Shown here in pieces: positions 52,183 through 55,348 of a stretch of DNA of 64,000 nt (position 1 is the first letter of the stretch; every line of letters starts with the position of its first letter). A program made the translations under genes and the position numbers. The notes beneath the pieces are model-generated. The model was not told the origin of the DNA, searched no databases, and worked only from the letters and a program-made list of their open reading frames with translations. The DNA lies in contig NZ_CP033878.1 of assembly GCF_009690625.1 (NCBI RefSeq), positions 1,984,001-2,048,000 of the forward strand. The letters are read 5' to 3'. This stretch comes from Halorhabdus sp. CBA1104 (GTDB lineage: Archaea; Halobacteriota; Halobacteria; Halobacteriales; Haloarculaceae).

Positions 52183-52632
52183 TCACCCGCAGTCCCGGAC
52201 CAAGAGCAGACCGACACCGGACCCGGCATCGAACTGCTCGGGCAGACGCTTCTCGATGTCGAACCCGCGGTCGCGATAAAACCGTCTGGCCGACTCGTCG
52301 TCGGCATGAACAGTCACACGTAGTTGCCTCGCTCCATCGGCTCCCGCTCGCTGGACGACACGTTCGAGGAGTTGGGTCCCGATCCCGTTCCGCTGGTGGG
52401 CGGGCACAACGGCGAGTTCCGGCACGTACGCGAGTTTGCCCGGCGTCAACGCCAGCACGTAGCCGACTGGCTGGGCACGGACGGCAACCAGGGCCAGCCC
52501 AGCCCCTCCGACGATCGCAGTCAGAACGTCCGGGGCTGGTTCGGCCAGTGTTCGGTGCTGAATCGACCGGAGCACCGGCAGGTCACTCTCCCTGGCAGAC
52601 CTGATCCGGACGGCCGGTGTGGCGTCGGTCAC
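52183..52632 (-). CDS. GNAT family N-acetyltransferase
   Basis: A 149-aa acetyltransferase fold protein. Motif A, which binds acetyl-CoA, is VPELAVVPAHQRNGIGTQLLERVV, and the C-terminal part ESARRFYRDRGFDIEKRL is typical. The GTG start at 52632 overlaps the stop of the upstream DUF92 gene (GTGA), so both form an operon. Substrate unknown. Confidence 0.82.
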   Translation of the reverse strand: MTDATPAVRIRSARESDLPVLRSIQHRTLAEPAPDVLTAIVGGAGLALVAVRAQPVGYVLALTPGKLAYVPELAVVPAHQRNGIGTQLLERVVQRAGADGARQLRVTVHADDESARRFYRDRGFDIEKRLPEQFDAGSGVGLLLVRDCG

Positions 52633-53969
52633 ACCAGCCCCACGCCGACGGCGAGCACCCCGCCGACCACACCGGCCGACAGCGTAGCCAGGAAATTGAC
52701 ACCCTGGTTGCCCAGCCACTGGCCTTCCAGTGTCGCCCCGAGGAGACTGTCGACGGTCATGCCCACGAATCCGCTACAGACGATGACTGTCGCGCCCAAC
52801 GCGGCGATGGTCTCGAAGGCGACCAGCGCGATAGCCGCAATGAGCGCCGCGCCCGACAACCCGGCGAGTTCCCCCTGCCAGGTGACACCACCGTCAGTGC
52901 CCGGTTCGACGCGTTCCAGCGTCGTGATCAGTCGCGGCGCGTCGTAGAGCCCGCCAAACTCACTCGAGAGTGTATCACTCATGGCCGCCGCAACCGAACC
53001 GGCAAACACGAACAAAAACACCTCCGGGGAGAGCGTCGTGAGTCGGGGGCTTGCGGCGGCCGCCAGGACGGCCCCGAGAGCGACCAGCGAGTTCGCCAAC
53101 ACGTTCCCGCTGCCGCGTGCCCCCTCGTTCTCCTGGGCGACCCCGCGCTTTACTTTCTCGGCGTATCTGAACTTGCTGGCCAACCCGCCACCGCCAAAGA
53201 AAGTGATCAGCATGGCGAACCAGCCGTAGTCGCCGACGACGATCGTCAGCAGGCTGAGGAAGACGCCGGTCAACATCCCCGGCAGCGAGGCGGTGTCCAG
53301 GGCATAAGAGACGTACCCCAATGCGACCGTGATCGCGAGCGCGAGCGCGATGCCGGTCGGCGTCACCGAGAGTGGCAGATCGGCGAACAGCCACAGCAGC
53401 AGTCCGATCGAAATGAGCACGAGTGGATCGTCGCGTTCGAACAAGACAGACCGGAGGAGCGCACCGAGTAAGGCACCGCTGACGGCCAGGAACACGGTCA
53501 CGGGCATCGCCGCTGTGGTTCCGACGATCCCATTGCTCGCGAGCTGGCCGAGGACGCCGGCGACCGAGCCGGTGGCAACGAACCCGGCCGTCGATCCCAC
53601 GGGGTCGGCCCCCAAGTCGCTAGCGACGTGGCCACCGAGATTGCCGACCCCGAGGACGAACGCGGCCATCACCGGGACGGCGACCGGCATGTCGAACTGC
53701 AAAGCGAGCAGCCCGAGTGCGGCGATCGAAAGCGAAAATCCGGCCAGGCCGTACAATCGCCCGTCTCGTCGGTCGCCCGGGCGAGCGAACAGCTCGAAGA
53801 CGAATCCCGCGTCGATAAACTGCAAGGCGGCGGCTGCCAGCGCCAGAAACGGGACCGTCCCGAGAACCGTCGCGGCCGCCGGCGGCAGCTGTCGAGCGGC
53901 GAGTGGGATGAGGAGCGCCCCCGCCCCGACGACGGCGAACGCTCCCGCGCGTCGGACTGCGGTCGTCAC
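52629..53969 (-). CDS. DUF92 family membrane protein
   Basis: A 446-aa integral membrane protein. Its second half, with GGGGLASKFRYAEKVKRGVAQENEGARGSGNVLANS and SDTLSSEFGGLYDAPRLITT, is the DUF92/TMEM19 signature; the first half adds about seven helices. The GTG start at 53969 begins a normal first helix and has a TATA-like ATACTTA about 22 nt upstream. Members are linked with phytyl-phosphate or prenyl lipid phosphate kinases in plants and cyanobacteria (family knowledge). The divergent neighbour is a cis-prenyltransferase homologue, so a polyprenol role is plausible. Confidence 0.8.
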   Translation of the reverse strand: MTTAVRRAGAFAVVGAGALLIPLAARQLPPAAATVLGTVPFLALAAAALQFIDAGFVFELFARPGDRRDGRLYGLAGFSLSIAALGLLALQFDMPVAVPVMAAFVLGVGNLGGHVASDLGADPVGSTAGFVATGSVAGVLGQLASNGIVGTTAAMPVTVFLAVSGALLGALLRSVLFERDDPLVLISIGLLLWLFADLPLSVTPTGIALALAITVALGYVSYALDTASLPGMLTGVFLSLLTIVVGDYGWFAMLITFFGGGGLASKFRYAEKVKRGVAQENEGARGSGNVLANSLVALGAVLAAAASPRLTTLSPEVFLFVFAGSVAAAMSDTLSSEFGGLYDAPRLITTLERVEPGTDGGVTWQGELAGLSGAALIAAIALVAFETIAALGATVIVCSGFVGMTVDSLLGATLEGQWLGNQGVNFLATLSAGVVGGVLAVGVGLV

Positions 53970-54113
53970 TGTCGGCGGTTTCCCCGAGAGATACTTACCA
54001 GTTCCGACCCGCGCCCGACCGCGAGCGGACGTGTTCGTCCAGTGTCTCGTTTGCGGGCGCCAGTCAGTCGGCAATCCCGTGACCTTCTTGTCGACCCGGC
54101 CAAAAGCCGGGCC

Positions 54114-54722
54114 GTGGGATTGTACGACCGCTACCTCGCCGCTCGCGTCCGCTACAGTGACGCTGCCCTGCCCGAGCGCGTCGCGATCGTCCTGGCAGAA
54201 CGGGACTTGCTCGAACAAGGGGCATACGAGACACTCGAATCCGTCTTCGAGTGGGCCATCGAGTACGGTGCCGAGCAGCTGATGGTCTACGTGAGTGTCC
54301 TCGACGAGGGCGCTGTACCGACCCTACAGCGAGAACTCGAAGCGATCGATGCCCCGCGAGCGGTCGCCGTCCGTGGCCCCGAAGACGACCAGCGCGCCCA
54401 GGCCCCGATCGCGATCTCGATCGGTCTGGGAGGTAAACACGAGTTCGCCACCGCCGTCAGGCGGCTCGCCAGGGAAGTCGAGGCCGGCGATCTCGACCCC
54501 GCTGCCATCGACGAAGACGAGATCGAACGCCGACTCGTGTTTCCGACCGAACCCGATCTCGTCATCAAGACGGGTGCCGAGCGACTCTCGGATTTCATGA
54601 TCTGGCAATCGGTGTACTCCGAACTGTACTTCACCGACGTCAACTGGCGGGACGTCCGCAAGCGGGAGTATCTCCGGGCGATCCGTGACTACCAGCAGCG
54701 ACAGCGGCGATACGGACGGTGA
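54114..54722 (+). CDS. Undecaprenyl-diphosphate-synthase-like protein lacking the catalytic MDGN motif
   Basis: A 202-aa homologue of cis-prenyltransferases, about 50 residues shorter than active UPP synthases. The C-terminal region V is intact (DLVIKTGAERLSDFMIWQSVYSELYFTDVNW), holding the IPP-binding Arg and active-site pattern. The N-terminal region I, where active enzymes have MDGNRRWA with the essential Asp, reads AIVLAERDLLEQGAYETL. It may be a non-catalytic subunit that pairs with an active enzyme elsewhere, like eukaryotic NgBR/Nus1. The GTG start at 54114 begins the homology; the promoter region is shared with the divergent DUF92 gene. Confidence 0.78.
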   Translation: MGLYDRYLAARVRYSDAALPERVAIVLAERDLLEQGAYETLESVFEWAIEYGAEQLMVYVSVLDEGAVPTLQRELEAIDAPRAVAVRGPEDDQRAQAPIAISIGLGGKHEFATAVRRLAREVEAGDLDPAAIDEDEIERRLVFPTEPDLVIKTGAERLSDFMIWQSVYSELYFTDVNWRDVRKREYLRAIRDYQQRQRRYGR

Positions 54723-54811
54723 TCGGAACAGCCATCCCGTGCGCCCAGCCCACCCAGGAAAGCAGCAGGTGACGTCGAAGCGCCTTTGGTGTGGACCCGA
54801 AAACGTCCGGT

Positions 54812-55348
54812 ATGGGCGAGTCGTATCAGGCGGTCGTCTACGACCTCGATGGAACCCTGGTCGGCCTCGACGTCGACTGGGCTGTCGTCACACACGAGGT
54901 CGCCGACCGTCTCGAATCTCGGGGTGTGGCGACGGCTGACGTCGATCTGTGGACGCTGCTGAAACGAGCCGATGCTGCCGGGGTCGGCGACGTCGCCGAA
55001 GAAGTCATTTCGGCCCACGAACGCGTGGGAGCGCGGACGTCAGATCGGCTGGCACTGGCGGAGGAACTGCCGCTTGGGGTCCCGGTCGGGGTGTGCTCGT
55101 TGAACGCCGAGTCGGCCGTCCGGATGGCCCTCGAGCGCCACGACCTGGCAATGGCCGTCGACGCCGTGGTCGGCCGAGATAGTGTCGCGACACAGAAACC
55201 CCATCCCGAACCGCTACGTACCGTCGTGCATCGGCTCGGCGTCGATCCAGCCGAGACGGTGTTCGTCGGCGATTCCCGGACGGACGAGACGACGGCCGAG
55301 CGCGCCGGCATGCCGTTTCAGTACGTCGAACAACGGCTGTCGGCATAG
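54812..55348 (+). CDS. HAD superfamily hydrolase (phosphoglycolate-phosphatase-like)
   Basis: A 178-aa phosphatase-like protein. HAD motif I is DLDGTL near residue 12, motif II CSLN near 93, motif III the Lys of QKPHPEP near 130, and motif IV GDSRTDETTAERAG near 155. The cap is small. ATG 54812 is preferred over 54791. Substrate unknown; in this genomic setting a lipid or sugar phosphate is possible. Confidence 0.85.
   Translation: MGESYQAVVYDLDGTLVGLDVDWAVVTHEVADRLESRGVATADVDLWTLLKRADAAGVGDVAEEVISAHERVGARTSDRLALAEELPLGVPVGVCSLNAESAVRMALERHDLAMAVDAVVGRDSVATQKPHPEPLRTVVHRLGVDPAETVFVGDSRTDETTAERAGMPFQYVEQRLSA

Follow-up and report, generated by a model that had tools for sequence, protein, structure and literature searches.

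The short PF01255 gene and its neighbours

The window analysed here, a stretch of 64,000 nucleotides from the genome of Halorhabdus sp. CBA1104, contains a short gene of the cis-prenyltransferase family PF01255 and, divergently transcribed from it, a gene for a DUF92 protein (Table 1). The original prediction, made from the letters of the window, gave the short gene as a cis-prenyltransferase homologue without catalytic motif I, and its coordinates and reading frame were correct. Downstream of the short gene lies a HAD hydrolase gene (54791-55348), matches to which were found near the loci of 13 of the 116 genomes, within short flanks.

Table 1. Features at the locus, in coordinates of the window
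Feature	Position	Strand	Details
Short cis-prenyltransferase subunit gene	54114..54722	+	202 aa plus stop, GTG start; PF01255
VLAERD codons	54189..54206	+	Residues 26-31, replacing catalytic motif I (IMDGN)
Motif V codons	54603..54632	+	WQSVYSELYF, residues 164-173; intact
C-terminal RxG motif codons	54708..54716	+	RYG, residues 199-201
DUF92 (PF01940) integral membrane protein gene	52629..53969	-	446 aa, probable GTG start at 53969; domain in C-terminal half
Intergenic region between the divergent DUF92 and short-gene starts	53970..54113		144 bp

The Pfam model PF01255 matches the short protein with 95.1 bits (cut-off 27), and the match covers only residues 95-201, against model positions 113-219. 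Its confinement to the C-terminal half of the protein indicates that the N-terminal, catalytic half has diverged. The short protein shares its fold and Pfam family with the homodimeric UppS enzymes (TIGR00055), but it lacks motif I, and its score of 84.2 bits with that model is below the cut-off of 109.55. At the position of motif I the short protein has RVAIVLAERDLLEQG, and the catalytic paralogue described below has HVAVIQDGNRRYA; the predicted replacement by VLAERD is thus present. Motif V, also predicted to be intact, is so (WQSVYSELYFTD). The tail of the protein, RQRRYGR, contains an RxG motif that was absent from the original description.

A full-length paralogue carries the complementary motifs

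The genome is a single contig of 2.63 Mb. PF01255 gives two matches in it, the short gene and a paralogue of 309 aa (G000:C1:971961-972626(-)). The paralogue has the motifs DGNRRYA and FSTENF, and its motif V is altered (WHANGNEAAVYFCAPYW). There is no RxG at the end of its core domain, where a C-terminal helical extension is found instead. The complete UppS that had been expected elsewhere in the genome is therefore not there, as the sole other PF01255 gene is without RxG. The paralogue keeps motif I and lacks RxG, and the short protein shows the reverse, so that the complete active site of a canonical homodimer is present in neither of them by itself.

We compared both kinds of protein across the phylum. 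From 116 Halobacteria genomes, that of the window included, we extracted 116 short proteins; 115 of these genomes also yielded paralogue genes, 116 in all, with three further second paralogues left out; a second full-length paralogue occurs in four of these genomes (G061, G098, G068 and G105). The partner counts also leave out three truncated entries (G022, G034 and G110), each of which repeats a gene already taken from an overlapping locus. From the rest of the phylum 36 genomes were chosen, 34 of which (24 families) had matches, and one protein of each kind was taken per genome.

DGN is found in none of the 150 short proteins (150 genomes), and 149 of them have the C-terminal RxG, the exception (G241) having KFG. 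The column of E. coli Asp26 holds D in five of the 150, and the window protein is not among these. All 150 partner genes (149 genomes) have DGN, and a single one (G180) has RxG at the motif place. The motif pattern of the short protein was also seen in 80 named loci, where DGN is missing from 80 of 80 and the RxG tail is present in 80 of 80. These loci were the 80 best-scoring among at least 560 relatives in a scan with a profile that had motif V among its search patterns. The set is thus a selected one, and it is not fully independent either, as at least three loci (L249, L282 and L307) seem to be shared with the 34-genome set. They come from Methanocellales, Methanoperedens, ANME groups, Methanolobus and others, which we take to be Halobacteriota (two titles are unspecific), and seven are Halobacteria.

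We considered Glu213 as a further part of the split and rejected it. At the position of E. coli Glu213, Glu is found in 150 of 150 short proteins and in 146 of 150 partners. With this residue on both sides, the split concerns motif I and RxG.

A few partner proteins have unusual ends. The G180 partner (L230:828-1646(-)) ends in RIRAGE, with RAG in place, though a short RxG subunit adjoins it. In the G247 and G121 partners an RxG triplet stands at the very end of the extension. Separately, G002:C1:478925-479599 is a more distant third PF01255 match.

Distribution and arrangement of the two genes

The short protein was found in all 116 Halobacteria genomes and the partner in 115. The remaining genome (G072), a draft of about 120 contigs, has the short subunit, and the full-length PF01255 partner was not found in it. 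Across the phylum, the profile of the Halobacteria short proteins matches 239 of 246 genomes, a count that includes matches to the paralogue alone. Five fragmented genomes of family f14 have a single PF01255 gene each, which is of the full-length kind, and no short gene was found in these five. No PF01255 match was found in five of five f16 genomes (G122, G131, G140, G149 and G156; 75-91% complete), nor in two incomplete genomes, G178 and G314. In eight genomes of genus g11 the match to the window protein breaks after about residue 90; the short protein of G006, of the same genus, has an acidic insertion after about that residue (L162:1177-1836(+)).

The genes for the short protein and its partner lie within 10 kb of each other in 89 of 115 Halobacteria genomes, and in 89 of 89 cases they are convergent (tail-to-tail), although these and the following gene-context counts are not independent, the genomes being related. 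Of the other 26 genomes, 16 have the two genes at a great distance from each other on a single contig, and these include four of four genomes of the window's genus, its own among them; the other 10 have them on separate contigs. Among the 34 other Halobacteriota genomes there are 12 pairs within 10 kb, from 12 families, of which 11 are convergent and one is tandem; in the other 22 the pair is not close or not on one contig. For the named loci, the partner is in the flank (at most 3 kb) in 21 of 80 and is convergent in 21 of 21, the partner at L246 being cut by the end of the stretch. That so many families have this layout in common nevertheless speaks for a functional link of long standing.

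Predicted structures and subunit coevolution

The AlphaFold model of the short protein (mean pLDDT 90.1, pTM 0.86) has the cis-prenyltransferase fold. Compared with known structures, it matches 8wu6_B, a plant enzyme of the homodimer type, with a VIA Z of 14.3 (rmsd 3.1, 180 aligned), and the NgBR chain 7pay_B with a VIA Z of 13.4 (rmsd 4.4, 176 aligned). As VIA rows differing by under 1 count as tied, the two are practically level, and the fold alone cannot separate an NgBR-like from a UppS-like protein. The match to NgBR extends over the whole length of the short protein, and the profile comparison gives E 4.8e-6.

The model of the paralogue has a mean pLDDT of 77.6, with low values around motif V (residues 208-215 and 219-225), and has helices after the core domain. 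Its first match is human DHDDS (6z1n_A; E 2.1e-20 over 300 columns), with E. coli UppS close behind (E 4.5e-20 over 224 columns). Both models are of single chains, and a complex is outside their scope.

Coevolution between the subunits was scored by mutual information, with partners shuffled within families and the interface block set from the human complex. For 149 pairs scored against the shuffles, the interface block contained one of the top 20 scores (1.5 expected), 11 of the top 50 (3.8 expected), 20 of the top 100 (7.5 expected) and 32 of the top 200 (15.1 expected). Raw scores for the same 149 pairs placed four in the top 50, against 3.8 expected. For the 115 Halobacteria pairs there were 12 at the interface against 12.5 expected, a result exceeded by 821 of 1870 sliding blocks. 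An enrichment of about 2.3-fold was seen in a different block (about 121-200 of the short protein with about 177-253 of the partner), but this block was picked post hoc. The top scores were far above those of the shuffles, which is a sign of residual relatedness inside families.

A putative heteromeric cis-prenyltransferase

We consider it very probable that the product of the short gene is a non-catalytic subunit, that it is paired with the paralogue in a heteromeric cis-prenyltransferase, and that the putative complex makes the dolichyl carrier. The split of labour of the NgBR/DHDDS type that had been proposed for this locus has good support from the complementary motifs and from the gene context. 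The paralogue would supply the hydrophobic tunnel, FSTEN and motif I, whose DGNRRYA would bind Mg2+ and diphosphate. The short protein would supply the dimer face, and its RxG tail would cross the interface and complete the active site of the paralogue, as that of NgBR does for DHDDS. Since RxG and motif I stand on different proteins, each heterodimer would have one composite active site. The complex would then extend an allylic diphosphate with isopentenyl diphosphate to a long polyprenyl diphosphate, which would be converted to dolichyl phosphate, the presumed carrier for archaeal N-glycosylation.

The proposed pair resembles DHDDS/NgBR and Rer2/Nus1 in its division: motif I and a helical extension at the C-terminus belong to the catalytic subunit, and the C-terminus of the non-catalytic subunit would complete the site. 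Eukaryotic NgBR/NUS1 has an N-terminal membrane anchor before the domain. The short protein, unlike NgBR, consists of the domain only and has no N-terminal extension or anchor, the first helix of the model beginning at residue 3 of 202 and leading into the domain; its sequence similarity to NgBR is weak.

For the human enzyme it is reported that the C-terminus of NgBR crosses the interface and that its RxG contributes to the active site of DHDDS (PMC7573591). Yeast Nus1, for which a transmembrane domain is mentioned (PMC7573591), has a C-terminal Asn where NgBR has RxG (PMC7573591, PMC7839719). Several cis-prenyltransferase structures show the arginine of RxG in water-mediated contact with Mg2+, and some show the glycine nitrogen of RxG contacting the phosphate of the acceptor (PMC8131916). 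Non-catalytic subunits are described as having PF01255 similarity in the C-terminal half only (PMC7839719), and the short protein has the same distribution.

Two PF01255 proteins of one archaeon also form the enzyme MM_0618/MM_1083 of Methanosarcina mazei, which is reported to be heteromeric with C45-50 products (Emi et al. 2019, cited in PMC8131916) and has been proposed to serve glycosyl carrier lipids (PMC8131916). The Methanosarcina-like genome G247 has three PF01255 genes. One of them is closely orthologous to MM_0014, which leaves the partner and the short protein as, by elimination, the counterparts of MM_0618 and MM_1083. By the same elimination, the pair of the window's genome is probably orthologous to the M. 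mazei pair. In two sampled genomes of Methanosarcina size (G247 and G311) the arrangement differs, with 0.5-0.6 Mb between the two genes; most Halobacteria genomes of the sample have them next to DUF92 as a convergent pair. Archaeoglobus fulgidus reportedly has a two-subunit cis-prenyltransferase as well, which would be a second case among the archaea. In the literature searched, which covered few subscription papers, we found no description of the haloarchaeal pair.

The third PF01255 paralogue, which ends in TLGG as MM_0014 does, was seen at L213 (G247), L214 (G125) and L215 (G222). G125 and G222 are in families other than that of G247, and MM_0014 was compared with L213 alone.

MM_0014 also provides the basis for a different reading of the locus. 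It lacks RxG, is active on its own without a partner and was crystallised as a homodimer (PMC8131916), so that a missing RxG is no proof of partner dependence. The paralogue could thus be an RxG-less homodimer of this type, and the short protein a separate regulator or scaffold with no direct catalytic part. This would be in keeping with a coevolution analysis that does not establish an interface, and with the conservation in Halobacteria of the replaced motif I itself, which could mark another function. We nevertheless regard this reading as unlikely. The RxG motif is near-invariant in the short proteins, is not obviously needed by a scaffold and is the very element that the partner lacks. 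Motif V is also kept in the short protein, and the M. mazei proteins identified by elimination as the matching pair are reported to be heteromeric (PMC8131916).

It is less likely still, and we would give it very little weight, that the short protein is an active enzyme with changed chemistry, in which the conserved acidic residues of the segment TERDLL replace the catalytic Asp. Residues D31, L32 and L33 of the replacement segment are invariant, and E29 nearly so, in an alignment of 60 Halobacteria short proteins. However, the segment varies in other Halobacteriota, and other substrate residues are gone: in the alignment of the 150 short proteins the position of His43 is gapped in 149 and that of Arg77 in 135, and FSxEN is replaced. 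Alignment gaps also indicate that the short protein lacks the tunnel-lining parts of the full domain.

The loss of the catalytic motif, read alone, would suit a decaying UppS copy, but the chance that the short gene is a pseudogene is negligible, since it is neither a one-off nor in decay: orthologues with open frames are present in 116 of 116 Halobacteria genomes and, in nine genome pairs, dN/dS is 0.02-0.15 for the short gene (and 0.05-0.15 for the paralogue), showing purifying selection.

The DUF92 neighbour

If the short gene and the paralogue encode a heteromeric cis-prenyltransferase, the DUF92 gene may belong to the same pathway. The DUF92 gene adjoins the short gene divergently, as stated in the original prediction. 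Its product matches PF01940 with 191.4 bits (cut-off 27.5), and its 152.2 bits with TIGR00297 are below the cut-off of 205.85. In 98 of 116 Halobacteria genomes, and in 45 of the 80 named loci, the fetched flank has DUF92 upstream of the short gene and in divergent orientation. Each of the 116 Halobacteria genomes has a single DUF92 match. In the g11 genomes sampled, DUF92 was found near the short gene in none.

The N-terminal half of the DUF92 protein, about 210 aa outside the domain, has no Pfam match. We rejected the idea that this half is a second kinase domain, as the Pfam match is C-terminal only and the two halves, compared by profile, matched with a probability of 0.2%; nor was a duplication seen in that comparison.

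The DUF92 family presumably includes the plant phytyl-phosphate kinase VTE6. By its likeness to VTE6 and the conserved place of its gene next to that of the short subunit, the DUF92 protein is a fair candidate for a step in the Dol-P pathway or in carrier salvage, and we offer this as a lead. VTE6 has been linked to COG1836 (PMC9782597), and part of the archaeal Dol-P pathway was called unknown in a 2016 study (PMC5088576). A literature search for DUF92 gave no relevant title among the matches listed. In the scheme set out above, the DUF92 protein would probably act later in the pathway, in polyprenyl phosphate handling, and this is a weaker step than those of the synthase. More tentatively, DUF92 and both subunits might form an ancient lipid-carrier module of Halobacteriota, an idea we find rather doubtful. 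DUF92 would then be an enzyme between polyprenyl diphosphate and dolichyl phosphate, or one of salvage, perhaps held at the membrane with the synthase via the non-catalytic subunit.

Implications for archaeal carrier-lipid synthesis

Haloarchaea are models of archaeal N-glycosylation, and the enzyme that makes their carrier lipid probably has two subunits, like that of eukaryotes, and is not a homodimer of the bacterial type. A two-part enzyme was already known from another archaeon, M. mazei; a probable case in the major archaeal class Halobacteria is now added, and the motif split is widespread in Halobacteriota. The annotation of either gene as a complete UppS is corrected accordingly. DUF92 is pointed to as a candidate for the part of the Dol-P pathway called unknown in 2016 (PMC5088576). 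The haloarchaeal pair would also be a genetically tractable system for RxG exchange between the subunits.
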